Source: Holophagae bacterium (lineage in GTDB: Bacteria > Acidobacteriota > Holophagae > Acanthopleuribacterales > Acanthopleuribacteraceae). From it: a stretch of 64,000 nucleotides of DNA. The position numbers and the translations under genes were made by a program. Under the pieces are notes generated by a model. The model made no database searches and was not told the origin of the DNA. It saw nothing but the letters and a program-made list of their open reading frames with translations. The stretch covers positions 1 to 64,000 of the forward strand of contig JAJCXM010000022.1 of the NCBI GenBank assembly GCA_029263455.1, given 5' to 3'. Shown in pieces: positions 1,771-44,460 of the stretch. The first letter of the stretch is position 1. Every line of letters starts with the position of its first letter.

Positions 1771-2681
1771 GATTTGACCACTTCGGGGACAACGTGTTGC
1801 GCAGGTGTTGGCGACCAATCAAATGCTTTTTTAGCCTTGTCATTGTCAAATGTTAGATTGCTCGTCATCTTCTCAATTAGATGACTATTAATGGGGAAAA
1901 CTGTTTTGAGAAGATGTCCTATGCCATCGCCTAACAGACCTAACCCTTTTGCGATGAAAAGAGGCAATCGGAGTGGTCTATTTCGGTTCAATGCCTGACA
2001 AATTACCGTTTCTAACTGCAGAAAACTCAAGTGATCGTCATCAGTAAGATTAAATACACCTTCGGTTCCAGTTAAGCTGTGAACAAGCTTGGCAACATCG
2101 TCAACCCAAACCATACTTCTTTGACTCTGGCCGCTGCCAACGCCGAGATATCGATGTCTTTTCAAAGCCGCTACCATGGAACCAAAATTGCCAGGAGCGT
2201 TTGCACCAATGACCAATGGCAATCTCAAGATGATGAGTTTCGTTTCTTTTGCTTGGAAATAGTTACGACAGGCTTCTTCTGCTTGAAATTTGGACATGGC
2301 ATACGCAGTGGTAGGTCGACACTCTGTGGTTTCATCGAGATTTGAACCCTTCACCTGTCCGTATACGGCTACCGTGCTGATCAAAATGAACGTCTCTAGC
2401 GAATCTGGTAGGGCAGCCAGTAGGTGTTGAGTTCCTTTGGCATTGGTTTGGAACATGCGCCTATGTGTCTTGGGACCATCATTCTTGACATGAGCTAGGC
2501 CAGCGACATGTATGACAGTCTTCACATTGTTTGGAATGGCTTCGATGGATTCACGGAGATCGGCCTTGATATGTGTAAAGGGTTCAACGCTCGTCCGTCC
2601 CAAAGTGAATAGTTCTTCCGGCTTAAAAAAAGCGGCTATCCGACTGCCAATAAAGCCGGATGCTCCGGTAATAAGTTTCAT
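1758..2681 (-). CDS. NAD-dependent epimerase/dehydratase (extended SDR)
   Basis: The protein is a nucleotide-sugar-modifying short-chain dehydrogenase. It starts with the Rossmann motif GASGFIG at residues 6-12 and has the catalytic YAMSK (YxxxK), with SVA-type residues (LISTVAVYG) just before. At 307 residues it has normal length for the UDP-sugar 4-epimerase-like proteins that sit beside WbpL-type transferases (WbpV/WbuX-like). It probably makes the sugar nucleotide used by the transferase just downstream, with which its 3' end overlaps. Its ATG overlaps the stop of the preceding glycosyltransferase by four bases (ATGA). Exact substrate cannot be read from sequence. Confidence 0.85.
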   Translation of the reverse strand: MKLITGASGFIGSRIAAFFKPEELFTLGRTSVEPFTHIKADLRESIEAIPNNVKTVIHVAGLAHVKNDGPKTHRRMFQTNAKGTQHLLAALPDSLETFILISTVAVYGQVKGSNLDETTECRPTTAYAMSKFQAEEACRNYFQAKETKLIILRLPLVIGANAPGNFGSMVAALKRHRYLGVGSGQSQRSMVWVDDVAKLVHSLTGTEGVFNLTDDDHLSFLQLETVICQALNRNRPLRLPLFIAKGLGLLGDGIGHLLKTVFPINSHLIEKMTSNLTFDNDKAKKAFDWSPTPAQHVVPEVVKSWKF

Positions 2682-3868
2682 GTTCTTGTTCGCTGTACAC
2701 GTTTGATGACGTCTAACATTTGATCAGATAGTTTGTTTCGGTCAAAGCGTTCCTTTGCCAAGGCTAATGATGCACGAGCCATTTCCTCTCTTTGCGATTC
2801 GTTTCGCGCGAGTGATTCGATGGCTGATGCGATTTCGCCAGGTTGTGACCTCTTAACTGATAAACCACAGCCAGATTCTTGCACAAGCTCCTTTATCCAG
2901 CCTTGGGTCGTCTGAATAATGGGAAGTCCAGATGCTAGGGCGTCAAACAACTTGTTTGGCGAAACCGTGCTAAGTGTGGGTAAGTCTTCAAAAACGACCA
3001 GCGAACAAAGCGCATGTTGAAACCAAGGCACAAGTTCGTTCTTCGGTTGAAGACCCATCATGTTGATATTGGTTAGGCCATTCTCGTGTATTTTTGTTCG
3101 CATGATTGCTTCATCACAGCCGGTGCCAAAGACAACCAGCTGGACACTTGAGCCTAAGTTTTTTAACGCTTGGGCAACGTCAATCAACAGTAGAGTGCCG
3201 TCCATCTTGCCAAGACTACCTGCATAAAGCGCATAGCCACCAGATTGGGGGATCGGGTATGTCTGCCCAGAGAATAATTCAAGGTCACTCGCATTAGGGA
3301 TCACTTCGATTGGGCAGTTTTTTACTCGTGGCTCAATGGCTTTGGCCATCCCGGGCGAAAGTGCAACGATAGCGGAAGCACCGCGGTAGCACCAGCTTTC
3401 CAGTTTTTTGGCCAACCAAATTGCCAGAGAACTGCGCAAAATGCCCAGTTCAATTGCTCCGTCTGGCCAGACGTCTCTGACCTCAAAAACCAGGGGTTTA
3501 CGAGTGAAAAAGCTGAAAATCCGACCAGGAATGCCGATCGTAAGTGGACCTGAAGAGGCAACGGCTACATCGGCTTTGGCTCTCAATCCAAACCAGCTTG
3601 AAACTGCAGAAAACGCAATGAATTTGAGGATCCGGGCAGCCTTAGACTGTTGGTTTGTTGATTGGATATTGATGATGACAATATCGATGCCTTCGATGGC
3701 CAAGCGAGTGATGAATCCGTTAGGTTTCAGATCAGATTTGTCGTAACTTGAGGTAATAACGGTCACGCGGTGGCCATCCTTGACCCAGCGGCGCGCAAAT
3801 TCGTATACCCTTGTGCTCCAGGACCCACGTGGTGTTGTAAAGTATTGATAAAAATAGATGATGTGCAT
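2678..3868 (-). CDS. GT4-family glycosyltransferase, WbuB-like
   Basis: A retaining GT-B glycosyltransferase of 396 residues. The N-terminus (YFYQYFTTPRGSWSTRVYEFAR) has the layout of WbuB-type transferases, which add an amino sugar to lipid-linked acceptors. The C-terminal half holds the family 4 donor-site region (STVSPNKLFDALASGLPII), including the SxxPxK-type loop. It is translationally coupled to the epimerase gene by a four-base overlap. It acts at the cytoplasmic face of the inner membrane. The family call is firm. The sugar transferred is inference only, based on the WbuB-epimerase-WbpL gene order that is common in O-antigen clusters. Confidence 0.85.
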   Translation of the reverse strand: MHIIYFYQYFTTPRGSWSTRVYEFARRWVKDGHRVTVITSSYDKSDLKPNGFITRLAIEGIDIVIINIQSTNQQSKAARILKFIAFSAVSSWFGLRAKADVAVASSGPLTIGIPGRIFSFFTRKPLVFEVRDVWPDGAIELGILRSSLAIWLAKKLESWCYRGASAIVALSPGMAKAIEPRVKNCPIEVIPNASDLELFSGQTYPIPQSGGYALYAGSLGKMDGTLLLIDVAQALKNLGSSVQLVVFGTGCDEAIMRTKIHENGLTNINMMGLQPKNELVPWFQHALCSLVVFEDLPTLSTVSPNKLFDALASGLPIIQTTQGWIKELVQESGCGLSVKRSQPGEIASAIESLARNESQREEMARASLALAKERFDRNKLSDQMLDVIKRVQRTRT

Positions 3869-14485: not shown

Positions 14486-16252
14486 TTATTCGGGTTTTAC
14501 GCTGTTCAGATATTGACTAAAAGTAGATGCCTTGTTTGCCATCAATAGCTGCAAATTTCCACTTTCAACAACCGCACCTTTATCGAGTATTAACACACTG
14601 TCGGCATCTAAAGCGTGATTTACGTTGTGTGTAACCAAAACAATCGTTTTACTTCCTTTCATTTTACGAAGGTATTTTCGTATTACGTCGGCAGTCTTAT
14701 GGTCGAGTGAACTTGTGGCTTCGTCAAGGATCAAGAGGTCGATATTTCTGAACAATTCTCTTGCTAGCCCAATTCTCTGCCGTTGACCTCCCGAAATTAA
14801 TCCCCCGCGATCGCCGACTGGCCCATCCATGCCTCCTTCACGATTGTGCCCAAAATCTAGTGCAGTCTTTTTAATAATTGATTCAGGAACCTGGCCTTCT
14901 GTCCAAAGCATAATATTGTTTTTCATAGAATCGTTGAATATTACAGACTCTTGTGTGATGTAACCCAAATGGCGTCGGTAGCTTTTTTTGTCAAGTTCTC
15001 TGAGGTCGACTCCGTCAACTAGCACCTGCCCAGATGTTGGAACGAACAGACCCGTCAAAATATTAACCAGAGTTGACTTACCAGATCCTGACTCTCCCAA
15101 AATAGCGACCAGCTGACCTGTGTCAATCTTCAGATTAACGCCTTTTAATGCCTCAAAATCGCCGTATTTATAACTGACACCCAAGAGTTCGTAAGTGCTA
15201 GGAACCTCTGTAATCCGTGTGGCCCCATTGGATTCAACGTTCTTTTCGAGTTCGGCTATTTTGGATGTTACAAGATCAATCGATGATGATGTTGCAAGGA
15301 ACGTCTGCCAAGAAACTTGATAAGCCATAAAGTTAGTCAAAGAACGATAAACCAATAGCAATATGAAAATAACGGACGTCACCGGAGCTTCACTAAACGT
15401 CGAATGAAATCCTACCAAGGCCAGCAGGGAAGTTACGAGAATAGGTTCGCGCAAGCCTTTTACTAGGGCCTTGAGAATGCTTAGCTTAAACATCGTGCTG
15501 CTTAGGCTCTTCACGATGATGCGCAGCTTGATCAGAGTTTTTTGTATGGTCCCAGTGGCAAGAAGATATTTTGCATTTTGGAGATTTTCAGTAACAAAAC
15601 CTTGAAATGATGACTGTTGTTTAACTAAAGATGCGGATAGTAATTTTGCTTTTCGATTGAGTACCCTCAAGATTAATGCAGACATGGAGGTCAGAAGGAT
15701 CGTCACTAGGGTGAAGAACGGATTTACAAATGAGGCGACGATTATATATGTGAAAACAGTTAGAAGGCACGACGCCGATGAAACGAAAAGAAAAATAGAG
15801 TTGACGCTGTCGGTCAACTCTCCACCGGCTATATGACTGAGAACACCGCTGTCCTGTTTGGCTAAGAAACTAAAATTGGAATTCGAAAAAGACTCAACGA
15901 ACCGCGTTCTAAAACTAAACGCTAGGCGGCTTTTTTGCCAACCTGCGAAAGCCACTTCACAAAAAAGCATGCATCCCTTAAGACCATAAATGCACACAAT
16001 CCCGGCTATTATGTAGGGTAACTCAAACGGAATGCCTAGACTTGAATAAACCAAGTGAAACCAGTTTGTTACAGGTGACCTGCTTGTTTGATCGGCATCC
16101 ATTGTTTCGATAAGTGGCAGAAACAATGCAAGCCCAAAACCATCCAAAACGGTTGTTATTAATGTCAGCGCCATTAATATCAATGAATTCCATCGCATCT
16201 CTTTCCAGATCAGCGTTGAATATTGAAAAAACGAACTTCCCCACCTAGACAA
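14486..16252 (-). CDS. ABC flippase for lipid-linked glycan (PglK/MsbA-like half-transporter)
   Basis: A fused permease/ATPase of 588 residues. The first half has about six membrane segments. The C-terminal nucleotide-binding domain has Walker A GESGSGKST, signature ISGGQRQRIGLAR and Walker B LLILDEATSSLD. Half-transporters of this size and position act as flippases for lipid-linked sugars (PglK, MsbA). No Wzx-type flippase appears in the cluster, so this gene probably fills that role. It starts at a TTG (16250-16252) with GAGGAG five bases upstream. It could instead export another lipid or peptide, and it is not close enough to the lasso genes to be assigned to them. Confidence 0.85.
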   Translation of the reverse strand: MSRWGSSFFQYSTLIWKEMRWNSLILMALTLITTVLDGFGLALFLPLIETMDADQTSRSPVTNWFHLVYSSLGIPFELPYIIAGIVCIYGLKGCMLFCEVAFAGWQKSRLAFSFRTRFVESFSNSNFSFLAKQDSGVLSHIAGGELTDSVNSIFLFVSSASCLLTVFTYIIVASFVNPFFTLVTILLTSMSALILRVLNRKAKLLSASLVKQQSSFQGFVTENLQNAKYLLATGTIQKTLIKLRIIVKSLSSTMFKLSILKALVKGLREPILVTSLLALVGFHSTFSEAPVTSVIFILLLVYRSLTNFMAYQVSWQTFLATSSSIDLVTSKIAELEKNVESNGATRITEVPSTYELLGVSYKYGDFEALKGVNLKIDTGQLVAILGESGSGKSTLVNILTGLFVPTSGQVLVDGVDLRELDKKSYRRHLGYITQESVIFNDSMKNNIMLWTEGQVPESIIKKTALDFGHNREGGMDGPVGDRGGLISGGQRQRIGLARELFRNIDLLILDEATSSLDHKTADVIRKYLRKMKGSKTIVLVTHNVNHALDADSVLILDKGAVVESGNLQLLMANKASTFSQYLNSVKPE

Positions 16253-24953: not shown

Positions 24954-25091
24954 ATGAAAAGAATCAAATCGGTCTATAACAAACCCGTTCTGAAATGTTA
25001 CGGGTGTATCGGTGTTATGACCCAAGGTAACTCCAGCGTTATGAACCAGCCAGGTGGGAAAAAGCAAGCGGCGGAAAATCCAAATAAGTAA
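24954..25091 (+). CDS. Lasso-type precursor peptide A1, lacking a ring acceptor
   Basis: A 45-residue peptide with a clear RBS (AGGAG at 24941-24945, eight bases before the ATG). The leader contains YNKPVLKCYG and ends VMTQ. This fits the lasso leader pattern Y-x2-P-x-L-x3-G and the conserved Thr at position -2. Cleavage after Gln24 would give a core starting GNSSVMNQP. Known lasso peptides close a ring from residue 1 to Asp or Glu at position 7, 8 or 9, and here those positions are Asn, Gln and Pro. Aligned with A2, one residue is missing exactly where A2 has its acceptor Asp. The leader has two cysteines absent from A2. It may be a decayed copy or make a non-lasso product. Confidence 0.75.
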   Translation: MKRIKSVYNKPVLKCYGCIGVMTQGNSSVMNQPGGKKQAAENPNK

Positions 25092-25189
25092 GCGACCCCT
25101 CTAAAAAAATCAAAGTTTACGAAAGCGACCTGAATCTTGATACTCAAGCTGTGCTATCTTTTGCCCGAAAACAGTCTAGAGGTAACAGT

Positions 25190-25489
25190 TTGTCATACTC
25201 GCTTGATGGTTATGTGGTTCCGCCTGATGATTATGTTTCTAAAACATTCGATCAGGAAACGGTGATTGTTGACTTGGAGGGCGGAGAATATTTCGGGCTC
25301 GAAAAGGTTGGTGCCCGTTTTTGGGCTTTGGTTGAATTGGGTTCCGGGTTGCGTCCCGCTTTTCGGACATTACTTGATGAGTTTGACGTCGATGAAAAGA
25401 CGCTGGAAAGCGATCTTCTTGAGCTAGTCGGCGAATTGGTTGACCATGGTCTCCTAAAGTATAGCGATCATCACCCAGATGCGGTTTGA
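25190..25489 (+). CDS. Lasso B1 protein: PqqD-like RiPP recognition element
   Basis: A 99-residue PqqD-family protein. B1 proteins bind the leader of the precursor and hand it to the processing enzymes. The PqqD pattern is visible: VIVDLEGGEYFGLEKVGARFWALVE, then a helix with TLLDEFDVDEKTLESDLLELV and a final DHGLL. The frame is open from a GTG at 25151, but that start has no RBS. The TTG at 25190 has AGAGGT six bases before it, so I use it. The gene lies between A1 and the lactam synthetase, the expected place for B1. The B2 protease domain that sometimes follows or fuses with B1 is absent. Confidence 0.88.
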   Translation: MSYSLDGYVVPPDDYVSKTFDQETVIVDLEGGEYFGLEKVGARFWALVELGSGLRPAFRTLLDEFDVDEKTLESDLLELVGELVDHGLLKYSDHHPDAV

Positions 25490-25505
25490 GCAGCGGTGAT
25501 CTGAA

Positions 25506-27371
25506 TTGGGCGGCATAGCCGGTATTTTTCATCGACGTGACCAGGTGGCCAAGCGCCGAGACGTGGACACAATGTTAAAACCCAGTGCCGTACGTGGCCC
25601 ACACGGGTCTCAAATATGGCTAGATGGTCCCGTTGGTTTGGGTCATTTGGCATTGCATATTTCCGCTAACCAGAGGCTCGACCCCCAACCTGTCTCGATA
25701 GGCCAACAAACCATTTGTTTGCATGGCCGCTTGGACAACCGAGCCGAAATAGCGAAAGCCCTGACTAAAGATGAACCGACAAACCATGTATGTGATGCGC
25801 GTTTGGCATTGATGGCCTACCAAGCATGGGGACTAGAAGCCTGGCCAAAGTTTGCCGGTGATTTTGTCTTTGTTATTTGGGACGCTGAAACAGAATCCTT
25901 GATCTGCGTTCGCGATCGCATGGGTCTCAAGCCTTTTCACTATATGGTTCACGAACGTGTTTTCGCATTTGGTAGTGACGTCCGCCAAGTCCTGGCTGTG
26001 TACGATCGCCCACTTATGCCCAACAAGGGGATGATTGCCGAATATTTGGCTAGCCATATCACGTCAAACACCGAGACGCTTTATGAAGGCATCATGCGGC
26101 TTGAACCAGCCCATATGATGACGGTTACGAAGTCGGAAGTTAGGATACAAAGGTACTGGGATCCCAACGCGACCAATGTCAGTTACTCGTTGACAGATGC
26201 CGAGCGCGAAGCCAATTACGCGCACGCTTTTTCGCAAGCGGTTAAGCAGCAATCCGATGTTGAAGCACGCATGGGCGTTTCTTTAAGTGGTGGCATTGAC
26301 TCATCCACCGTCATGGCAGCTTTGGTCCAACACCGGGACAAGGCCCGAATCTCTGCCTATTCATTATGCTTTGAGGGGCTAGAGTGTGATGAAAGCGAGT
26401 CTATGAGGGAGATTGCTTCTACCTGGGGCGTGTCGCATCAACCCTTTTCGTTTGATCCACCGTCTTATGAAGTGATCGCGCAGTGGGTTCGTCGCTGGCG
26501 CGACTTTCCTGATTACCCCAATTTGATGGCCTATAAGCCGCTTAAACAGCAATCTGTCATCGATGGCTCGCGTATTATGTTTTCAGGACTTGGGGCCGAT
26601 GATTGGACCGATTTGCGCTGCTCGCCCTTGCCGGATATGATTGCTCGCTTTCGTTGGCTAAAAGCCGCAAAGGAAATGAAAAGAAGATCAGCCTGGTACG
26701 GTTGGAGACGAATGCCAGGTGTACTGGCTCGCCAAGGCGTCTGGCCACTGTTGCCTGTTAGTTGGAGGCGTAAGCGTTTCACATCATTTGATTTAGGTCG
26801 TAACTATGCGCCATGGCTAAACACCGAATTCTTGTCGAACACACACTTGTCCGAACGTATTTGGGAAGAACGTCAAGGCCGTTTCCCTTCTTATGATCGC
26901 CGTGCTTGGATCCAATGGCTAGAAAAAGGCTATTGTGTGCAGTTCGGTGAAGCACAAGAACGTGTGGCTGCAGAAGCGGGCGTGGAGATGCGCTTCCCTT
27001 TCAGCCATAAAGATGTCGTGGAAATAGGACTAGGCATCCCACCTGAATATAAGTGGCTACGACCTGCCAACAAATGGATTGTCCGGCGTTGTTTTGAGTT
27101 ATTAAAACCACCTGCGGCTAACTTCAATTTCACATCGGCGGAAGGGTCCCCCATCTACATGGGATTCCTTAAGTCACTGGGCGCAAACGAATTCTTCCAG
27201 AGAAACTTAGCGGTTTATGAAAACGGTTGGATTGATGCAGAAAAAATGCGTGCTATTGCTAATGAAAGCTTTCAAATGTACGATAAGGGTAATAGTGTGT
27301 ACGCCTTCAAAGCGCGACCGCTTTGGATGGTGGCCGGCATTGAGCTTTGGCTAGAGAATGCATTTGGATAA
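25506..27371 (+). CDS. Lasso macrolactam synthetase C (asparagine synthase-like)
   Basis: The enzyme activates the side-chain carboxylate of the core's acceptor Asp/Glu with ATP and joins it to the N-terminal amine. The 621-residue protein has the asparagine synthase layout, with the ATP PP-loop VSLSGGIDSSTV near residue 260. The N-terminus reads MGGIAGIF, where true amidotransferases have MCGI. The glutaminase cysteine is therefore replaced by glycine, as expected when no ammonia is needed. It starts with TTG at 25506, 16 bases after the B1 stop. Contrast the AsnB at 17137, which keeps the cysteine. Confidence 0.9.
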   Translation: MGGIAGIFHRRDQVAKRRDVDTMLKPSAVRGPHGSQIWLDGPVGLGHLALHISANQRLDPQPVSIGQQTICLHGRLDNRAEIAKALTKDEPTNHVCDARLALMAYQAWGLEAWPKFAGDFVFVIWDAETESLICVRDRMGLKPFHYMVHERVFAFGSDVRQVLAVYDRPLMPNKGMIAEYLASHITSNTETLYEGIMRLEPAHMMTVTKSEVRIQRYWDPNATNVSYSLTDAEREANYAHAFSQAVKQQSDVEARMGVSLSGGIDSSTVMAALVQHRDKARISAYSLCFEGLECDESESMREIASTWGVSHQPFSFDPPSYEVIAQWVRRWRDFPDYPNLMAYKPLKQQSVIDGSRIMFSGLGADDWTDLRCSPLPDMIARFRWLKAAKEMKRRSAWYGWRRMPGVLARQGVWPLLPVSWRRKRFTSFDLGRNYAPWLNTEFLSNTHLSERIWEERQGRFPSYDRRAWIQWLEKGYCVQFGEAQERVAAEAGVEMRFPFSHKDVVEIGLGIPPEYKWLRPANKWIVRRCFELLKPPAANFNFTSAEGSPIYMGFLKSLGANEFFQRNLAVYENGWIDAEKMRAIANESFQMYDKGNSVYAFKARPLWMVAGIELWLENAFG

Positions 27372-27393
27372 TCGAGGATCAGGAGCACCAGTC

Positions 27394-27534
27394 ATGAATC
27401 AGAGAAAAACAACTTATTCAAAGCCGCGATTGCGGCAATATGGTAGCGTAAGCGTGTTGACCCGTGGAGCGGATATATCCACGCAGAATGATCCCAACGG
27501 TAAGACCACAACCGGCGGAAAATCAATGCTGTAA
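27394..27534 (+). CDS. Lasso peptide precursor A2
   Basis: A 46-residue precursor between the synthetase and kinase genes, with AGGAG at 27381-27385 eight bases before the ATG. The leader has YSKPRLRQYG and ends VLTR, matching the lasso recognition motif and Thr at -2. Cleavage after Arg24 gives a 22-residue core starting GADISTQND, so Gly1 and Asp9 would form a nine-residue ring. The tail starts PNGK, is rich in Thr and Gly, and ends KSML. Ser20 and several Thr are possible targets of the kinase encoded next. All of this follows the known lasso precursor rules; the actual product has not been seen. Confidence 0.88.
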   Translation: MNQRKTTYSKPRLRQYGSVSVLTRGADISTQNDPNGKTTTGGKSML

Positions 27535-27552
27535 CAAAGCTCATTTTTAGCA

Positions 27553-28500
27553 TTGGCATATCATTACTCGGCATACGGTCTCAACATCACATCAGAAAGT
27601 CAAATCGCTGGTCTTAGTCAACGGCCAAATGGCGACGTTGATGTGCGGGTAAATCTCGACACGCAATTACATGTTCGGTGGGACGAACCTAGCGACCCGG
27701 TAGACTTCTATCGAAGTCCATATTGCGATGACCATGGTCGTCCTTTGCTCGTTGTAGATAAGTTAAACCCTTTCTTCAGGCTAACCTTCTCTGACCAGGT
27801 TCAATTCATCGTGGCTGAGGATGGTTCACATGTGTGGGGTACATGGCCAGCTACGAGTTCGCGTCGAGACACAGAAATATATCTGACTGGTTCCGTGCTG
27901 GGATTTGTGCTTCGGCTAAAGGGTAAAGTTACTGTGCACGCAAGTTCGGTTCTGTACCAAGGTCAGGCGATTCTCTTAGTCGGCGATTCAGGGTTTGGAA
28001 AATCAACGACTGCCGCTGCTTTTGTGGCCGAAAATGGCCAGCCTTTGGCTGACGATGTGGTCGTCATCGAGACTGATAAGCATGGAGGGTATACGCGCAT
28101 GGGCGCTAATCAGATTCGGCTGTGGCCTGACTCGGTTAGCGGTTTGTATGGTGATGAAGACGCCCTGCCGAAGTTGACCCATGACTGGCCCAAACGGTTC
28201 CAGCAAATCGATGCTGACCCTCAGGCTTCCTACCCCATCGCGGCGGTATTTGTTTTGCAATCGCGATCGGCTCAAGGTCCGACGATTGCCCCAATGACGT
28301 CGGCTGAGATGTGTGGTCATTTACTCTCGAACTCCCATGCTGACGGATTGCAGACGAAAGCAAGCAGGGCGCGAAGTTTTGAGGTGCTATCACAACTCGC
28401 AGAACGGGTGCCAGGTTATTGGCTAACCAATCACACTTCTTTCGAACGACTTAAGGACACCTGTAAGATGTGCTTAGAAACCATTCAAGAGGGACCATGA
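27553..28500 (+). CDS. HprK-like kinase, probable lasso peptide tailoring enzyme
   Basis: A 315-residue protein with the C-terminal kinase fold of HPr kinase. Walker A is VGDSGFGKST at residues 142-151, preceded by VHASSVLY, and LADDVVVIE follows as in HPrK. Homologues in lasso clusters (the paeninodin kinase) phosphorylate a Ser at the end of the precursor. The N-terminus YHYSAYGLNITSE is typical of these RiPP-linked kinases and supports the TTG start at 27553, despite a weak RBS. No phosphocarrier HPr gene is nearby. It overlaps the methyltransferase gene by four bases. The A2 core has Ser5 and Ser20 plus four Thr, but its last residue is Leu, not Ser. Confidence 0.82.
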   Translation: MAYHYSAYGLNITSESQIAGLSQRPNGDVDVRVNLDTQLHVRWDEPSDPVDFYRSPYCDDHGRPLLVVDKLNPFFRLTFSDQVQFIVAEDGSHVWGTWPATSSRRDTEIYLTGSVLGFVLRLKGKVTVHASSVLYQGQAILLVGDSGFGKSTTAAAFVAENGQPLADDVVVIETDKHGGYTRMGANQIRLWPDSVSGLYGDEDALPKLTHDWPKRFQQIDADPQASYPIAAVFVLQSRSAQGPTIAPMTSAEMCGHLLSNSHADGLQTKASRARSFEVLSQLAERVPGYWLTNHTSFERLKDTCKMCLETIQEGP

Positions 28501-29639
28501 CCTATTCCATCTTCGCATTTGGGCGCATGATTGATGATCGAGAACGCACGGAATCCTACGTCAAGGCCCTCCAGGCCAGTGTTCGCCCCGGTTCGGTGGT
28601 GGTTGACATAGGCGCCGGAACCGGGGTTTTTTCGTTGGTGGCTTGTCAGCTCGGAGCCCGAAAGGTGGTTGTCATTGAACCCAATGAGGCCATACAAGTT
28701 GCGCGTGAATCAGTTAATGCCAATGGTTTTTCGGATCAGGTGGAATTCGTTCAAGATCTGTCGACTGTTTACGCAAGTGTTGAGAAGGCGGACGTAGTGG
28801 TAGCCGACATTCGCGGTGTCTTGCCTATGCACCAAACCTCCATAAATTCGATGATCGATGCCCGCGAACGATTGTTAAAGCCAAAGGGAACGCTTATTCC
28901 GGGCCATGACTCACTTTGGGCCACCCTTGTTCAGCATGAATCTATTCACAAACAACATATTAGCCCGTGGCACTGGGAACCGTTAGGACTCAACCTTAAA
29001 GCTGGTAGGCCCTACGCCTGCAATCACATGCGCAAAGAACAATTCCAGCCCAAACAGTTGGTCGTCGAGGCTCAATGCTGGGCCGAACTTGACTACCGCA
29101 CGATCGTGGAAGCCAACATCAAAGGCTCAATCTCGTGGACACTTTCTGAAAATATTCAAACCCATGGCATTGCTGCCTGGTTTGATACCGAGTTGCTGCC
29201 AGGAATCGGATATTCCAATGCGCCCCAGACGGGTCGTGAATTGTACGGCACCATGTATTTTCCGTTTGATGAGGTGATCAACGCACAAAAGGGACAACGC
29301 ATCCAAGTGTCCATCCAAGCGAAGCCCGTTAACCACGATTACGTTTGGATATGGGAGGCAGCCGTTTTTTCAGAGGATGGCACACGGATCCAGCGCGTCA
29401 AACAAAGCTCTCTTTTCAGTTCATCCATCCACGCGCAACGGATTCAGAAGGTCCAGGACCAGCAGGTAACGGCACTTAGCCCGGAGGGCTTGCTTGCGCT
29501 AGATATTCTTGAGCAAATGCGATCGGGTCTTACGATTCTTAATATAGGGCGTGCGGTTTATAAGGCGTATCCCGACCGCTTTAATGATGAAGAAGACGCG
29601 GTCCATTTTGTGGCCGGGTACGCACTCAAGTACACATGA
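28497..29639 (+). CDS. PRMT-like methyltransferase with C-terminal PqqD-like domain
   Basis: A 380-residue class I methyltransferase. The SAM motif VVDIGAGTGVF is at residues 34-44, then VVVIEPNE and VVVADIRGVLP. The beta-barrel half resembles protein arginine methyltransferases, but the catalytic double-glutamate loop is not present (DIRG in place of SEWMG). The last 55 or so residues (from about 327, LSPEGLLALDILEQMRSG) look like a small PqqD/winged-helix domain that could bind a leader peptide. The ATG at 28497 overlaps the kinase stop (ATGA), so the two are made together. It is probably a tailoring enzyme for the lasso-type product; the methylated residue is unknown. Confidence 0.72.
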   Translation: MTYSIFAFGRMIDDRERTESYVKALQASVRPGSVVVDIGAGTGVFSLVACQLGARKVVVIEPNEAIQVARESVNANGFSDQVEFVQDLSTVYASVEKADVVVADIRGVLPMHQTSINSMIDARERLLKPKGTLIPGHDSLWATLVQHESIHKQHISPWHWEPLGLNLKAGRPYACNHMRKEQFQPKQLVVEAQCWAELDYRTIVEANIKGSISWTLSENIQTHGIAAWFDTELLPGIGYSNAPQTGRELYGTMYFPFDEVINAQKGQRIQVSIQAKPVNHDYVWIWEAAVFSEDGTRIQRVKQSSLFSSSIHAQRIQKVQDQQVTALSPEGLLALDILEQMRSGLTILNIGRAVYKAYPDRFNDEEDAVHFVAGYALKYT

Positions 29640-29643
29640 GAGT

Positions 29644-29832
29644 AAGCAGCAAGCGGCAAGCAGCAAGCGGCAAGCTACAAGCAGCAAGCAGCAAGCAGCA
29701 AGCGGCAAGCTACAAGCAGCAAGCAGCAAGCGGCAAGCAACAAGCAACAAGCTACAAGCAACAAGCTACAAGCAACAAGCTACAAGCAGCAAGCAACAAG
29801 CAGCAAGCAGGAAGCAGGAAGCAGCAAGCTAC
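29644..29832. repeat. Heptanucleotide array, 27 perfect-length AAGCNNC units
   Basis: Starting five bases after the methyltransferase stop codon there are 27 uninterrupted 7-base units. All begin AAGC; the next three bases are mostly AGC, GGC, TAC or AAC, with two AGG. The tract is 189 bases. Any reading frame across it gives Lys/Gln/Ala/Ser or Cys/Leu-rich artefacts, so the open frames seen here on both strands are not genes. Similar short tandem heptamers are known from cyanobacteria. Short pieces of the same heptamer recur at 33724-33750, 43776-43800 and 44424-44456. Confidence 0.95.
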
Positions 29833-34076: not shown

Positions 34077-34091
34077 TGGCATGAGGCTTGC
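34077..34091 (+). promoter_or_regulatory. Sigma-54 promoter of the efflux operon
   Basis: TGGCATGAGGCTTGC matches the sigma-54 consensus: the GG at 34078-34079 and the GC at 34090-34091 are exactly ten bases apart, as required. Transcription would start near 34103, just ahead of GGAG (34105-34108) and the ATG at 34118. The operon's own GAFTGA-containing activator makes a sigma-54 promoter expected here. Confidence 0.8.
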
Positions 34092-34117
34092 CTTTACTGG
34101 ATACGGAGATGATGAAT

Positions 34118-35392
34118 ATGTCTATACAAGATACATCGGCCCAAGATCGGACCATTCGACCCAAATCAATCAAACGGGCGCTCAACTGGATCATTCCGGC
34201 TGTGTTAATCGTTGTTGCTGTCGGCGTCTACTACGCCGTCTATATGCGTGCATGGTTTTCGGCCGACCGCTCGTTTGAACGCTCTAGAGTTAGGATCGCC
34301 CAGGTTGTGCGCGGTGATCTCACGCGCGAACTTGCGGTAGAAGGTCGCATTGTCGCGTCATCGTACCCGACACTTTATGCGCCCGCTGATGGGCGTGTGC
34401 GCCTGAAAGTTAGGGCTGGAGACCGCGTTAAAGAAGGCGACCTATTGGCCGTTATTGAAAGTCCAGAACTCAATAATCGCGTTCTTCAGGAAGAGTCGCA
34501 ATTGGCAGCAATTAATGCGGAACTCACCCGTCAACAAATAGCGGCGCAAACCATGAAATTGACAAATCAACAGGATACGGATCTTAAACAGTTGCGATTA
34601 GAGACGAACAAGCGTGAGCTGGCCCGATCGAAGCAGTTATTTGACCAAGGATTGGTTAATCGCAGTGATTATGACGCCGCTGTGGACGCGGTAAGTATTT
34701 CCGAACTGGAATACAAGCATGCCGTCGAGAAAGCTGCGTTAGACCTGTCAACCCAATCCTTAGAAACGCAAAACCGAGCCAACCAAAAGGAACGACAACA
34801 ACTGGTTTTAGATGAAGCAAAACGCAAAGTGGCCGAGCTGTCCATCCAGTCGCCAGTCAATGGCATGATAGGCAGTATATCGGTGGATCCTCGTGATGCT
34901 GTCGTCGCTAACCAGGAAGTATTGACCGTCATTGACTTGACGGCATTTGAAATCGAAATCCAGATCCCCGAATTCTATGCCGATGCAGTCGAGGTTGGAC
35001 ACCCAGCTGAGATCCGCTACGAAAACAAGATTTTTGGAGGACTGGTTTCGTTGGTGTCGCCTGAAGTTAACCGATCAACTGTGTCAGGACGCGTTGTGTT
35101 TGATGAGGCGGGTCCTGAGGGACTCAAACAGAATCAACGGGTATCGACGCGCATCATCCTTAATACGCAAAAGGATGTCCTCAAAGTGAGGCGCGGACCC
35201 TTTCTCGAAGCGGGGGGTGGGCGCACCTCTTATCTGGTTCATGAAGATTTGGCTCGAAAAGTAGCCATTGAAACCGGTGCCGTCAGTTTGACAGAAGTCG
35301 AAATGGTGAGTGGCGTCAGCGAAGGGGATTTTTTAGTTATCTCCGACCCCGGAGTCTTCCAGGGCTCCGAAACCGTCTATCTATACGAATAA
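34118..35392 (+). CDS. Periplasmic adaptor (HlyD/MacA-like) of an ABC efflux system
   Basis: A membrane-fusion protein of about 424 residues: one N-terminal membrane anchor (WIIPAVLIVVAVGVYYAVYM), a biotinyl-lipoyl-like half motif (APADGRVRLKVRAGDRVKEGDLLAVIE), a long coiled-coil hairpin, the second lipoyl half (IQSPVNGMIGSISVDPRD) and a beta-barrel. It links the inner-membrane ABC permease to an outer-membrane exit. The open frame begins at 34088, inside the sigma-54 promoter, so that start cannot be right; the ATG at 34118 follows GGAG by nine bases. An in-frame ATG at 34112 is an alternative. No outer-membrane TolC-like gene is in the operon. Confidence 0.88.
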   Translation: MSIQDTSAQDRTIRPKSIKRALNWIIPAVLIVVAVGVYYAVYMRAWFSADRSFERSRVRIAQVVRGDLTRELAVEGRIVASSYPTLYAPADGRVRLKVRAGDRVKEGDLLAVIESPELNNRVLQEESQLAAINAELTRQQIAAQTMKLTNQQDTDLKQLRLETNKRELARSKQLFDQGLVNRSDYDAAVDAVSISELEYKHAVEKAALDLSTQSLETQNRANQKERQQLVLDEAKRKVAELSIQSPVNGMIGSISVDPRDAVVANQEVLTVIDLTAFEIEIQIPEFYADAVEVGHPAEIRYENKIFGGLVSLVSPEVNRSTVSGRVVFDEAGPEGLKQNQRVSTRIILNTQKDVLKVRRGPFLEAGGGRTSYLVHEDLARKVAIETGAVSLTEVEMVSGVSEGDFLVISDPGVFQGSETVYLYE

Positions 35393-35409
35393 GCAGGAGG
35401 CAAGAAGTT

Positions 35410-36132
35410 ATGTTGTCGATGGAAAGTATCACAAAAATTTATCGAACAGATTTCGTAGAAACACATGCGTTGAGTCGATTCAATCTAAGAGTAGAGAGTG
35501 GTGAGTTCCTTGCCATAATGGGCCCATCGGGTTCCGGCAAATCGACGTTTCTCAATATCTGTGGCCTACTTGATGATTTTGATGAAGGCCACTATTTCTT
35601 GGACGACAAGGACGTGTCCCAGCTGAATGACAATGAGCGTTCTCGGATCCGAAACCAAAACATCGGCTTCATCTTCCAGAGCTTTAATCTGATCCCCGAC
35701 CTCAACGTCTTTGACAATGTGGATGTGCCATTGCGGTACCGCGGGTTGAGAGCGTCTGTCCGCAAAGGCATGATCGATGAAGCGTTAGAAATCGTAGGTC
35801 TTTCGGGCCGTAAGCGACATTTACCCTCGCAACTTTCTGGTGGTCAACAACAGCGTGTGGCCATTGCACGAGCCATTGCTGGCCTGCCCAAAATACTGCT
35901 GGCAGATGAACCAACGGGAAACCTGGACTCGGGCATGGCTCGCCAAATTATGGAGTTGTTGGAGAAGATAAATGAAACCGGCGCAACCTTGATTATGGTG
36001 ACTCACGACCATGAGCTGGCTGCTCGCGCTCACCGTCAAGTCCATATTCTGGACGGCAATATTGTGGATTTGGATGCGTCCGAGTTTGATTCTATTCGCG
36101 AACGAGAAGCTGTCGATGTAAAGGAGGCCTAA
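35410..36132 (+). CDS. MacB-type ABC transporter ATP-binding protein
   Basis: A 240-residue ATPase of the LolD/MacB group. Walker A GPSGSGKST, Q-loop region IGFIFQSFNLIPDLNVFDNV, signature LSGGQQQRVAIARA, Walker B ILLADEPTGNLD and the switch His (MVTHDHE) are all present. It powers the two FtsX-like permeases that follow. AGGAGG-like bases precede the ATG. The substrate is not readable; such systems carry peptides, lipids or antibiotics. Confidence 0.92.
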   Translation: MLSMESITKIYRTDFVETHALSRFNLRVESGEFLAIMGPSGSGKSTFLNICGLLDDFDEGHYFLDDKDVSQLNDNERSRIRNQNIGFIFQSFNLIPDLNVFDNVDVPLRYRGLRASVRKGMIDEALEIVGLSGRKRHLPSQLSGGQQQRVAIARAIAGLPKILLADEPTGNLDSGMARQIMELLEKINETGATLIMVTHDHELAARAHRQVHILDGNIVDLDASEFDSIREREAVDVKEA

Positions 36133-36133
36133 G

Positions 36134-37468
36134 GTGTTTCTATATCACTTAAAAATGGCTTGGCTTGGCATTCGACGTGCCCCCTGGGTCACCCTTATTT
36201 CCATCGCTTCGATCGCGCTCGGCGTCAGTGTTTCCACTTCGATGACGTCGGTTTACCATCTATTCACTCAAAACCCCTTTCCTCACAAGGATGATCGCCT
36301 ATTCAACGTACGAACCGACACCTGGGACGCAGACCAAGAATTTTTTGATGTGGAACCGGGCGAACCTCCGAAATCACAAACTTATCGGGACATGATGGCG
36401 CTCATGCAGAACGATATTGCCAGCCAGCAAACGGGCGTCGCTAATGCTACCGCTTACATTTTCCCAGCTAAACAAGAAATCCGGCCGTTTCAAAGCGTGA
36501 TTCGACTATGCCATAGCGACTTCTTCAAAATGTTCGAGGTTCCTTTCGCGTATGGCAATGCTTGGGGTGCTCAACAGGATCAGAGCCTGGAGCCGGTTGT
36601 GGTTTTGAGCCAAGACGGTAACAACAAACTGTTTGGCGGCGTTAATAGCGTAGGCCGCGCTGTCAAGATTGGGACACGCGAGTTTACGGTTGTTGGGGTT
36701 ATGGATCAATATCAACCCATGCCCCTTGTGTATGACCCAATAAATAGTCTAGCGGGCAAGACGCGCGACTTCTTCATGCCGCTCGAATTCATTCGTCAAC
36801 CGGATTTGGGGCTCAATATTTGGGGTGATGGAGATGCTTGGGGCCCTAGCGAAACTTTTGATGGAGATAAGTTGTTCACCGTCGCTGAATTCTATTGGAT
36901 CCAGTACTGGGTGGAACTCGAGCCGACGCGCCTCCAGGAATACAAATCCTTCGTCGATGCTTATGCTTTAGAGCAGAAATCACTGGGTCGTCATCCGCGC
37001 CCTGTCAATAATCGTGTAACGCCGATGATGGAGTTTGTGAATAGTCGAAACTCGGGATTAGGTGTCTCTAAGGCCATCATGATCCTCTCGATTCTGTTCC
37101 TGGTCGTGTGTGCCATTAACCTCTCCGGATTGTTATTAGGCAAGTTCTTGGCCCGGTCCTCAATTATTGGTGTGCATCGAGCCCTGGGAGCCTCCAAGAA
37201 AGATGTTTTTGTCCAACACATTCTTGAATGTGAACTGGTGGGCATCGCTGGCGGCGTTTTTGGGCTAGTGCTCAGTTACGTTGCGTTGCGAATGATTGCG
37301 CGCGCAATCACCATCGGCGCTGATCGAGTGAATACAGACATGATAACGGTAGATACCTATACCGCCACCATTGCGATTGTCTTTGCGCTGGTAGCCGGCC
37401 TTCTGGCTGGTCTATATCCCTCGTGGCGTGCGGGACGTGTTGCGCCTGCTTTGCAATTAAAAGTTTAG
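36134..37468 (+). CDS. FtsX/MacB-like permease, first of two
   Basis: A 444-residue permease: one N-terminal membrane helix (VTLISIASIALGVSVSTSM), a large periplasmic MacB_PCD domain, and three C-terminal helices ending in GLLAGLYPSWRAGRVAPALQLKV, the usual FtsX end. It starts with GTG one base after the ATPase stop. It works as a pair with the next gene, since MacB-type ATPases need two permease halves. There are no frameshifts. Confidence 0.87.
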   Translation: MFLYHLKMAWLGIRRAPWVTLISIASIALGVSVSTSMTSVYHLFTQNPFPHKDDRLFNVRTDTWDADQEFFDVEPGEPPKSQTYRDMMALMQNDIASQQTGVANATAYIFPAKQEIRPFQSVIRLCHSDFFKMFEVPFAYGNAWGAQQDQSLEPVVVLSQDGNNKLFGGVNSVGRAVKIGTREFTVVGVMDQYQPMPLVYDPINSLAGKTRDFFMPLEFIRQPDLGLNIWGDGDAWGPSETFDGDKLFTVAEFYWIQYWVELEPTRLQEYKSFVDAYALEQKSLGRHPRPVNNRVTPMMEFVNSRNSGLGVSKAIMILSILFLVVCAINLSGLLLGKFLARSSIIGVHRALGASKKDVFVQHILECELVGIAGGVFGLVLSYVALRMIARAITIGADRVNTDMITVDTYTATIAIVFALVAGLLAGLYPSWRAGRVAPALQLKV

Positions 37469-37476
37469 GAGACATC

Positions 37477-38718
37477 ATGGAAATAGGACCTATCTTACGC
37501 ACAATGACCCGTAACAAAACAGGCGTCGGTTTATTGATATTTGAGATCGCTATTACGATGGCTATTGTTCTTAATGCGGCGATGCTTGTCATCGACAGCA
37601 AAAAACGACTGCAGATAGATTCTGGCCTAGATGAAGAAAACATTGTGACCCTGACGGTCAAATCACTGGGCGACAAATTTGATGACACCGTCTACTTTAA
37701 CCAGATAGTGGATCAAGATTTGTTGGCGATACGCTCGATGCCCGAGGTGGTAAGCGCCAGCACTTGTGCACCTACACCCTTGCAAGGGGGAGGCAGCTCC
37801 ACCCAGCGCAAACCAGTTGGTGCTGAACCTTCAAGACTTGTGCGCTGTCCTAGATATAATGTGGATGAACACTTCATCAACACACTGGGACTGTCCTTGG
37901 TGGAAGGTCGCAGCTTTAACAAAGAAGATATGCCACCGGTTATGGATAGTGAGGAGTCGGTTGAAGAGGATCTAACTTCGAATCCTGTGATTGTGACTCA
38001 AGACCTTGCGCTGGCCCTTTTCCCCGACGGTGACGCTCTTGGCCAGCTCATTACCTTTGACGACAGCGGAAGCCCAGACATAATTGTTGGCATCGTTAAG
38101 TATATGTTCACGCCTTATGACAACGGCAAAAGCGGCATGGAAACGCGCATTCTCTTTCTGGCGGGCCGTCGCGGCGGACCAAGTGGCATGGGTTACCTTG
38201 TGCGGGCTGAAAAGGGAGCTATGAACTCGTTAATGTCGCAATTGGAGTCCACCTTACTGAAGGTTGAGGGTGATCGACTTATTGATATATCGCCGTTGAC
38301 TGAAATCAAGCGTGCCGGCTTTTCTTTCACTTATTTCATCGTCAATGCACTTACGGTCATTATGTTCCTACTGGTTGGCGTAACCGCCTTAGGTATTTTC
38401 GGACTGACCTCTTTTGCTGTGGCGGGTAGGACTAAACAAATAGGTACACGGCGAGCCCTGGGCGCCACAAAGTTCCAAATCGTGCGTTACTTTTTGGTTG
38501 AAAACAGTTTAATGACCCTGATGGGAATTACTCTTGGGGCCGTGATGGCGGTTGCACTTAATGGGGTCATTGTTAAAGCGACCGACGGCACACCGTTGGG
38601 AGTTGGCGCTATCGTCGCGGGTGTCGTCGCTCTATGGGCCGTCGGTCTCTTTTCATCACTGATTCCTTCGTTGCGAGCGGCAAGTGTGCCTCCGGTAGTT
38701 GCCACACGAGCGACGTGA
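37477..38718 (+). CDS. FtsX/MacB-like permease, second of two
   Basis: A 413-residue permease with the same layout: first helix GVGLLIFEIAITMAIVLNAAMLVI, a periplasmic domain, and terminal helices with GIFGLTSFAVAGRTKQIGTRRALGATKFQI and a final SLIPSLRAASVPPV. I choose the ATG at 37477 with AGGAGA just before it; a longer frame overlaps the previous gene and looks spurious. It pairs with the permease at 36134. Substrate unknown. Confidence 0.87.
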   Translation: MEIGPILRTMTRNKTGVGLLIFEIAITMAIVLNAAMLVIDSKKRLQIDSGLDEENIVTLTVKSLGDKFDDTVYFNQIVDQDLLAIRSMPEVVSASTCAPTPLQGGGSSTQRKPVGAEPSRLVRCPRYNVDEHFINTLGLSLVEGRSFNKEDMPPVMDSEESVEEDLTSNPVIVTQDLALALFPDGDALGQLITFDDSGSPDIIVGIVKYMFTPYDNGKSGMETRILFLAGRRGGPSGMGYLVRAEKGAMNSLMSQLESTLLKVEGDRLIDISPLTEIKRAGFSFTYFIVNALTVIMFLLVGVTALGIFGLTSFAVAGRTKQIGTRRALGATKFQIVRYFLVENSLMTLMGITLGAVMAVALNGVIVKATDGTPLGVGAIVAGVVALWAVGLFSSLIPSLRAASVPPVVATRAT

Positions 38719-44040: not shown

Positions 44041-44460
44041 TAATCCCTCAACCTCCTGTCGCCCGATGGGGCTCTTTTTGGTGAAGGACGCTAAACCCCG
44101 GCCTTACGACCGGGGCTAAATTCTGCCGCCTCTGCGAGGCTAAAAACCAGGGTACAATCACCGATGATTAATTAGGATTTCGATTTGGAACGCGGAAGCT
44201 TGCCTCCGATTTTCGCATCTCTACATTGAACACGAATGTTGGTATCGCGATGCTTGCTTCGCGAGCGCGAATGAGCGCCTGATCACTGCATCGCAGGCCT
44301 GACGGTAACTTCGAAATATGGCGTTGGTTGGGCAATCGGAACCGCACGGTAACTTCGATGCATCGCGCTCGATGAGCTTGCTCATCGAGATCGTTTCTTC
44401 AACTCCTGCGTCGCACCGGTCAAAAGCGGCAGCAAGCTACAGCGGCAGCAAGCTACCTCA
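44041..44460. repeat. Dispersed intergenic repeat, copy B, with GC-rich hairpin and heptamer ends
   Basis: From 44179 to about 44440 the sequence follows the repeat at 29852 in the same order. Before it, at 44096-44115, lies a CCCCGG...CCGGGG hairpin related to the one at 33822-33841, preceded by a GCCCGATGGGGCTC version of the same unit. After it come two GCGGCAGCAAGCTAC-like pieces of the heptamer (44424-44456). No gene is visible between 43754 and 44475. Confidence 0.7.

Follow-up and report, generated by a model that had tools for sequence, protein, structure and literature searches.

The closest described relatives of the system analysed here are the kinase-bearing lasso peptide clusters of the paeninodin, SyanA and BsfA types. 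These are ribosomally synthesised and post-translationally modified peptide (RiPP) loci that encode a precursor (A), a discrete B1, the leader peptidase B2, an AsnB-like cyclase (C) and an HprK-like kinase (K) with His-Lys-Asp-Asp catalytic residues. In the characterised systems, the linear precursor is modified with the help of B1 (PMC10368454, PMC9266682). We analysed a 64,000-nucleotide stretch, hereafter the window, from a Holophagae bacterium of the Acidobacteriota (GenBank assembly GCA_029263455.1, contig JAJCXM010000022.1, positions 1 to 64,000), in which positions 24954-29639 hold a lasso-type locus. It shares with the paeninodin, SyanA and BsfA types the discrete B1, the AsnB-like C, the His-Lys-Asp-Asp kinase, a YxxPxL leader and the Thr(-2) found in most of them, but it has no B2 where those loci have one, it adds a methyltransferase of the PRMT fold (MT), and its precursor A2 ends in Leu instead of Ser (PMC8498205, PMC10368454, PMC9266682). 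Our best reading, made from sequence, is that A2 would give a lasso peptide bearing a phosphate and a methyl group, with leader removal in trans. We hold it to be evenly balanced whether the leader of A2 is cleaved by the only B2 that we found in the genome, on another contig, C1.

Genes and precursors of the locus

The assembly comprises 40 contigs and is 95.07% complete (G, C and L numbers below designate our genomes, contigs and loci). We confirmed six intact genes in the order A1-B1-C-A2-K-MT across 24954-29639, all on the plus strand. The window has no match to PF13471 and none to a profile built from 42 B2 sequences. The gap between B1 and C (25490-25505), which holds B2 in most of the full loci in this class, is only 16 bp here, and profile searches of the genome give a single B2 elsewhere, so we rejected a B2 hidden by a frameshift or lying between B1 and C.

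The A2 precursor (27394-27534, 46 aa) passes the lasso-leader model NF033521 (21.3 bits, cut-off 19). Its leader carries YSKPRL..G..VLTR, and the cut region reads ...YSKPRLRQYGSVSVLTR/GADISTQND-PNGKTTTGGKSML (the slash marks the predicted cut), so that leader motif, Thr(-2) and the D9 acceptor are all kept, with a predicted G1-D9 ring and a C-terminal K-S motif. A1 (24954-25091, 45 aa), with an AGGAG ribosome-binding site 8 nt before its ATG, has the leader YNKPVL..G..VMTQ and reads ...YNKPVLKCYGCIGVMTQ/GNSSVMNQPGGKKQAAENPNK, where GNSSVMNQPGGKKQAAENPNK is the putative core and has no Asp or Glu ring acceptor at positions 7-10. The leader motif occurs in two small open reading frames (ORFs) of the window, A1 and A2, against 0.08 expected in shuffles. 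Among 17 precursors from loci without a clear B2, A1 is the only one without an acceptor; all others retain Thr(-2) and an Asp or Glu at core positions 7-10 (counting from the second Thr in L112 and L122). Because the precursors of B2-less loci retain both features, leader removal still seems to matter. The loss in A1 could stem from a single base change (Q8 from E), and A1 is probably a non-cyclisable or decaying paralogue that may be non-functional; judged on these motifs, A2 alone appears competent as a lasso precursor.

The C gene (25506-27371, 621 aa) encodes an asparagine-synthetase-like lasso macrolactam cyclase with PF00733 (Asn_synthase) and PF13537 (GATase_7) domains. Its N-terminus reads MGG, without the glutaminase Cys2, the SGGIDS motif is present, and the gene stands where the other loci of the class have their C. 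The top NCBIfam lasso model for C is NF033535 (lasso cyclase), at 287.6 bits and thus below the exception cut-off of 525. B1 (25151-25489) is a PqqD-fold RiPP recognition element (RRE) that matches PF05402 with 49.5 bits (5.4e-13) and scores under the cut-offs of the lasso PqqD models NF033536 and NF033530. Its true start is probably not GTG 25151 but TTG 25190, giving 99 aa, because an AGAGG ribosome-binding site stands there. When the locus is compared with split-B lasso loci, C, B1 and an A2-type precursor are present and a local B2 is absent. The locus thus appears to work like a lasso locus, but we reserve full membership because the window has no B2 and the sole B2 of the genome lies on another contig. 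We are nearly sure that it is a lasso-type locus of a wider kinase-methyltransferase (K-MT) class.

The kinase gene (27553-28500) matches PF07475 at 2e-6 and has homologues at the same position in other loci. Although its HprK profile matches are weak, the catalytic residues His-Lys-Asp-Asp are found in order, in HAS, GDSGFGKST (P-loop Lys) and ADD. A2 does not offer the kinase a C-terminal Ser, since it ends in ...GKSML with Ser third from the end. BsfK phosphorylates Ser3 (PMC10368454), so the target site of such kinases varies.

The MT gene (28497-29639, from ATG 28497 and not GTG 28470) encodes a class I S-adenosylmethionine (SAM) methyltransferase (METHYLTRANSFERASE). The AlphaFold model is confident (pLDDT 91.8), Foldseek matches it to PRMT2, PRMT6 and PRMT1 with E of about 1e-26, and the family profile matches PRMT8 with E 5e-48. 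In Pfam it matches PrmA and PRMT_C, with PCMT not reported. Since fold and profile both fit PRMTs, we rejected a ribosomal PrmA or a PIMT-like enzyme. The double-Glu loop is not kept: PRMT SEWMGY...E aligns with ADIRGVLPMHQ in the window protein and SDLRGxLP in the family consensus. The C-terminal ~70 aa are helical and match PF05402 weakly in 18 of 39 members (best E 1.6e-4), Foldseek gives no convincing PqqD match for this domain, and hhalign spans just 25 columns. Since sequence and fold evidence conflict, we did not accept the C-terminus as a proven RRE.

The initial annotation had described this six-gene order over the same span, with no B2 in the block or nearby, as a lasso-type locus with HprK-like and PRMT-like enzymes, and all of this stands, with profile, motif and fold support. 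Its proposal of two lasso precursors holds insofar as both peptides carry the leader motif; A1, without an acceptor, does not look competent.

B2 genes elsewhere in this and other genomes

A genome-wide search for B2, which had been suggested as a check, did yield one, in a RiPP-like cluster of a different kind. Both Pfam and the 42-sequence profile find a sole B2 at C1:100211-100705 on the minus strand. It passes NF033537 (41.0, cut-off 33) and keeps the invariant Cys and HAW (His-Ala-Trp). Its cluster has the order PqqD - HprK-like kinase - radical SAM/SPASM - B2 - NTP_transf_5. This B2, the only one found in the genome, is the best candidate for a protease that is possibly shared. The congener G004 (97% complete) has the same cluster, with a radical SAM protein 70% identical, and it too combines a lasso locus without B2, different from the one in the window, with only a radical-SAM-type B2 in the genome. 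In the more distantly related genomes G403 and G407, a K-MT lasso locus without B2 likewise goes together with a radical-SAM-type B2 only. Five other members of the family (G001, G002, G003, G005 and G006) have no radical-SAM orthologue; in G001, G002, G003 and G006 B2 lies inside the lasso locus, and G005 has a B2 with no recognised cyclase nearby. The lasso locus of G004 (L208:5104-14012, G004:C63) comprises K-C-A with B1 on the opposite strand, another methyltransferase and an NTP-transferase-like gene.

The PqqD proteins of the radical-SAM cluster end in a conserved tail, for example ...AGTCAFVPAQTPLCNQNPFS. They are found in the window genome (L002:10418-10804, G000:C1, minus strand) and in others (L200:11637-12038, L206:10585-11130 and L207:7887-8582; also L224, L225, L226 and L227). 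In several tails a Thr precedes a possible B2 cleavage site by two residues, and a C-terminal Ser is frequent. From these features the tail resembles a RiPP core to which an RRE of its own is fused, its C-terminal Ser suiting the kinase. The window genome also has a second C-B1-K operon, at L244:5943-8771 (minus strand, ~G000:C8:381942-384770), which encodes a lasso-like cyclase, a PqqD protein and an HprK-like kinase and in which we found neither B2 nor a recognisable YxxP precursor.

We searched 13 further genomes for PF13471 proteins above the cut-off. Nine of 12 have a B2 elsewhere in the genome, and in the thirteenth, that of L137, the match is the weak B2 of the locus itself; against a phylum background in which 49 of 199 genomes have some PF13471 match, a figure that takes in transglutaminases, this count is supportive but is not a formal test, because the lineages are not the same and ordinary transglutaminases make up part of the matches. 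On the complete chromosome of G411, C-A-K-MT occupies 2.01-2.03 Mb, and about 0.7 Mb away, at 1.288 Mb, lies a B1-B2 pair. G154, G157 and G373 also encode a B2 elsewhere, in G157 as an orphan amid housekeeping genes, while in G402 and G258 the separation of B2 from the locus could also reflect contig breaks. G373 contains an orphan B2 of the radical-SAM-associated clade (L088:6708-7166, G373:C42) with no radical SAM gene adjoining. Of its lasso loci, the K-MT one (L070) has no B2 and another (L087) carries one.

The K-MT class and the surroundings of the locus

We collected MT homologues from scans of the phylum and of a wider genome-contig collection and annotated their loci with profiles built here. 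The homologues are mostly 28-41% identical over their full length. Their loci, typically ordered B1-B2-C-A-K-MT or a variant of this, occur in at least eight phyla: Acidobacteriota, Cyanobacteriota (Phormidium, Synechococcus), Chloroflexota, Planctomycetota, Gemmatimonadota, Myxococcota, Pseudomonadota (Thermomonas, Lysobacter) and Verrucomicrobiota. Examples of full loci with B2 between B1 and C are L066, L098 and L102. The search for the conserved B1-C-A-HprK-methyltransferase order, as the initial annotation had envisaged, was productive: 60 loci combine C and MT, 39 of them with B2 and 21 without a clear local B2, and 17 of these 21 are not cut by a contig end. Two loci are duplicated across the two collections (L066 is L105, with B2; L067 is L111, without), and L137, one of the 17, has a weak B2-like match (27 bits) beside B1. 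With these corrections, 58 distinct loci remain, of which 38 have B2 and 16 are untruncated and give no B2 signal at all.

Given how widespread the class is, we do not regard the window locus as a unique invention, and the kinase and methyltransferase, which had been called unusual, recur beside B1-C-A in these phyla, and B2 is then generally found between B1 and C. B2-less loci are scattered on the MT tree, which does not support loss of B2 as one clade event, though the tree backbone is poorly supported. The earlier remark that no exporter is obvious is right for the window, where we found none adjacent, but this is usual for the class: an ABC-exporter-like ORF lies within 4 kb in only 13 of the 60 loci, and we dropped an adjacent exporter as a feature of the class. 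A C-terminal K-[ST] motif was likewise dropped as a class-defining mark, being present in only about half of the cores. Five loci from Thermomonas and Xanthomonas (L131, L133, L134, L135 and L138) have long multi-Cys cores with a C-terminal KHC or KKYC motif, and in most of them C is on the opposite strand. We found no open paper that joins lasso peptides with a PRMT-type enzyme (subscription papers were outside this search).

The window locus borders a polysaccharide island. Homologues of three island genes (763-1818, 1758-2681 and 2678-3868), at 40-43% identity, lie directly beside the G004 lasso locus, and in Bacilli lasso clusters and those of linear polyphosphorylated peptides (LPP) have been reported inside capsule loci (PMC13381572). 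The window also holds a 588-aa ABC protein (14486-16252) and a MacAB-like set (34088-38718), with no tie to the peptide. A tandem array of the 7-mer AAGCAGC (26.6 copies, 29644-29829) starts 5 bp after the MT stop; related arrays are found on contigs C3, C8 and C38, and the window has a further, short copy at 44425-44456.

Removal of the leader and comparison with known systems

By homology, B1 would bind the YxxPxL leader of A2. The kinase would phosphorylate a core Ser or Thr, S20 of the C-terminal K-S motif being one candidate, and the PRMT-fold MT would methylate the core. The unlinked B2 would then cut the leader after Thr(-2)-Arg, and C would close the G1-D9 macrolactam. For the A2 lasso the calculated monoisotopic neutral mass would be 2174.03, rising to 2253.99 with a phosphate, 2188.04 with a methyl group and 2268.01 with both. 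Analogy with the kinase-bearing lassos suggests that both modifications would be made on the linear precursor, aided by B1, before cleavage and ring closure. The initial annotation had left three fates for the leader, cleavage by an enzyme encoded elsewhere, retention on the peptide, or a kinase and methyltransferase that act on the full-length precursor, and the first is now the best supported. More tentatively, the B2 of the radical-SAM cluster may also remove the leaders for unlinked lasso loci of that cell, so that two RiPP classes would depend on one protease; we consider this possible, though we would not bet on it. The C-B1-K operon on C8 might use the same B2 too.

Several observations weigh against cleavage by the C1 B2. 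It falls in a divergent, radical-SAM-associated clade on a long stem of the B2 tree. Similar B2s occur in G212, G299 and G084, where cyclase-like matches have no adjoining B1, and from this occurrence without a recognised lasso locus we infer that the radical-SAM-type B2 serves a purpose of its own. The support comes from four genomes that form two pairs of close relatives, hence about two independent cases. G406, G409 and G410 have a B2-less locus and no PF13471 protein above the cut-off anywhere. Finally, the state of the assembly, fragmented and about 5% short, counts here as well and suits another explanation, in which the missing part of the genome encodes a canonical lasso B2 that cuts the leader as an ordinary unlinked enzyme, as the lasso-clade B2s elsewhere in genomes with other B2-less loci would suggest. 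We think this quite unlikely, as the 42-sequence profile finds only the radical-SAM-type B2 and the more complete congener G004 also has that type only.

Decay of the locus, with B2 and the A1 acceptor lost and no mature lasso made, is favoured by the lack of an acceptor in A1, by the 7-bp array that directly abuts the last gene and by the long branch (1.31) of the window protein on the MT tree. Yet the four enzyme genes are full length with their catalytic motifs kept, A2 retains leader, Thr(-2), D9 and tail, and B2-less loci with intact precursors recur across many phyla, which makes decay unlikely. Distinctly improbable, in our view, is a product that is not a lasso but a modified linear or leader-bearing peptide, made with a non-B2 protease or with no leader removal. 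LPP offer a parallel, being cut by a signal-peptidase-like enzyme, and HprK-like kinases and RREs also work in that family of linear RiPPs, frequently within capsule loci (PMC13381572); the window locus adjoins polysaccharide genes, and three genomes with B2-less loci have no B2 at all. However, C, the D9 acceptor and a Thr(-2) site typical of B2 cleavage are kept, and no protease gene is visible among the immediate neighbours of the block.

If leader peptidases are commonly provided in trans, genome-mining rules built on the joint presence of A, B and C will miss genuine lasso loci; of the C and MT loci that we saw, roughly one in three has no clear B2 in the locus. With its PRMT-fold methyltransferase the class adds a putative, uncharacterised tailoring enzyme to the lasso repertoire, and it allows one to test directly whether a single B2 is able to serve two RiPP classes.

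Apart from the kinase-bearing lassos, several known systems share part of this arrangement. A SAM methyltransferase beside A-B-C is also found with lassomycin and StspM, which give a C-terminal methyl ester, and in the PIMT lassos, which form an aspartimide, but the window MT differs from these enzymes in its PRMT fold and PRMT profile matches. The citrulassins are a precedent for an unlinked lasso enzyme, since their essential tailoring enzyme (PAD) is encoded elsewhere in the genome (PMC12971885), whereas in the window genome it is the leader peptidase that is unlinked. Lanthipeptides with unclustered proteases likewise have a leader protease outside the cluster (PMC8960859), although they are another RiPP class and use other protease families. 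The LPP RiPPs of Bacillota resemble the window in having an RRE, an HprK-like kinase and an NTP transferase in or near polysaccharide loci, alongside lasso systems, but they have no cyclase, use a signal-peptidase-like leader peptidase and belong to another phylum (PMC13381572).

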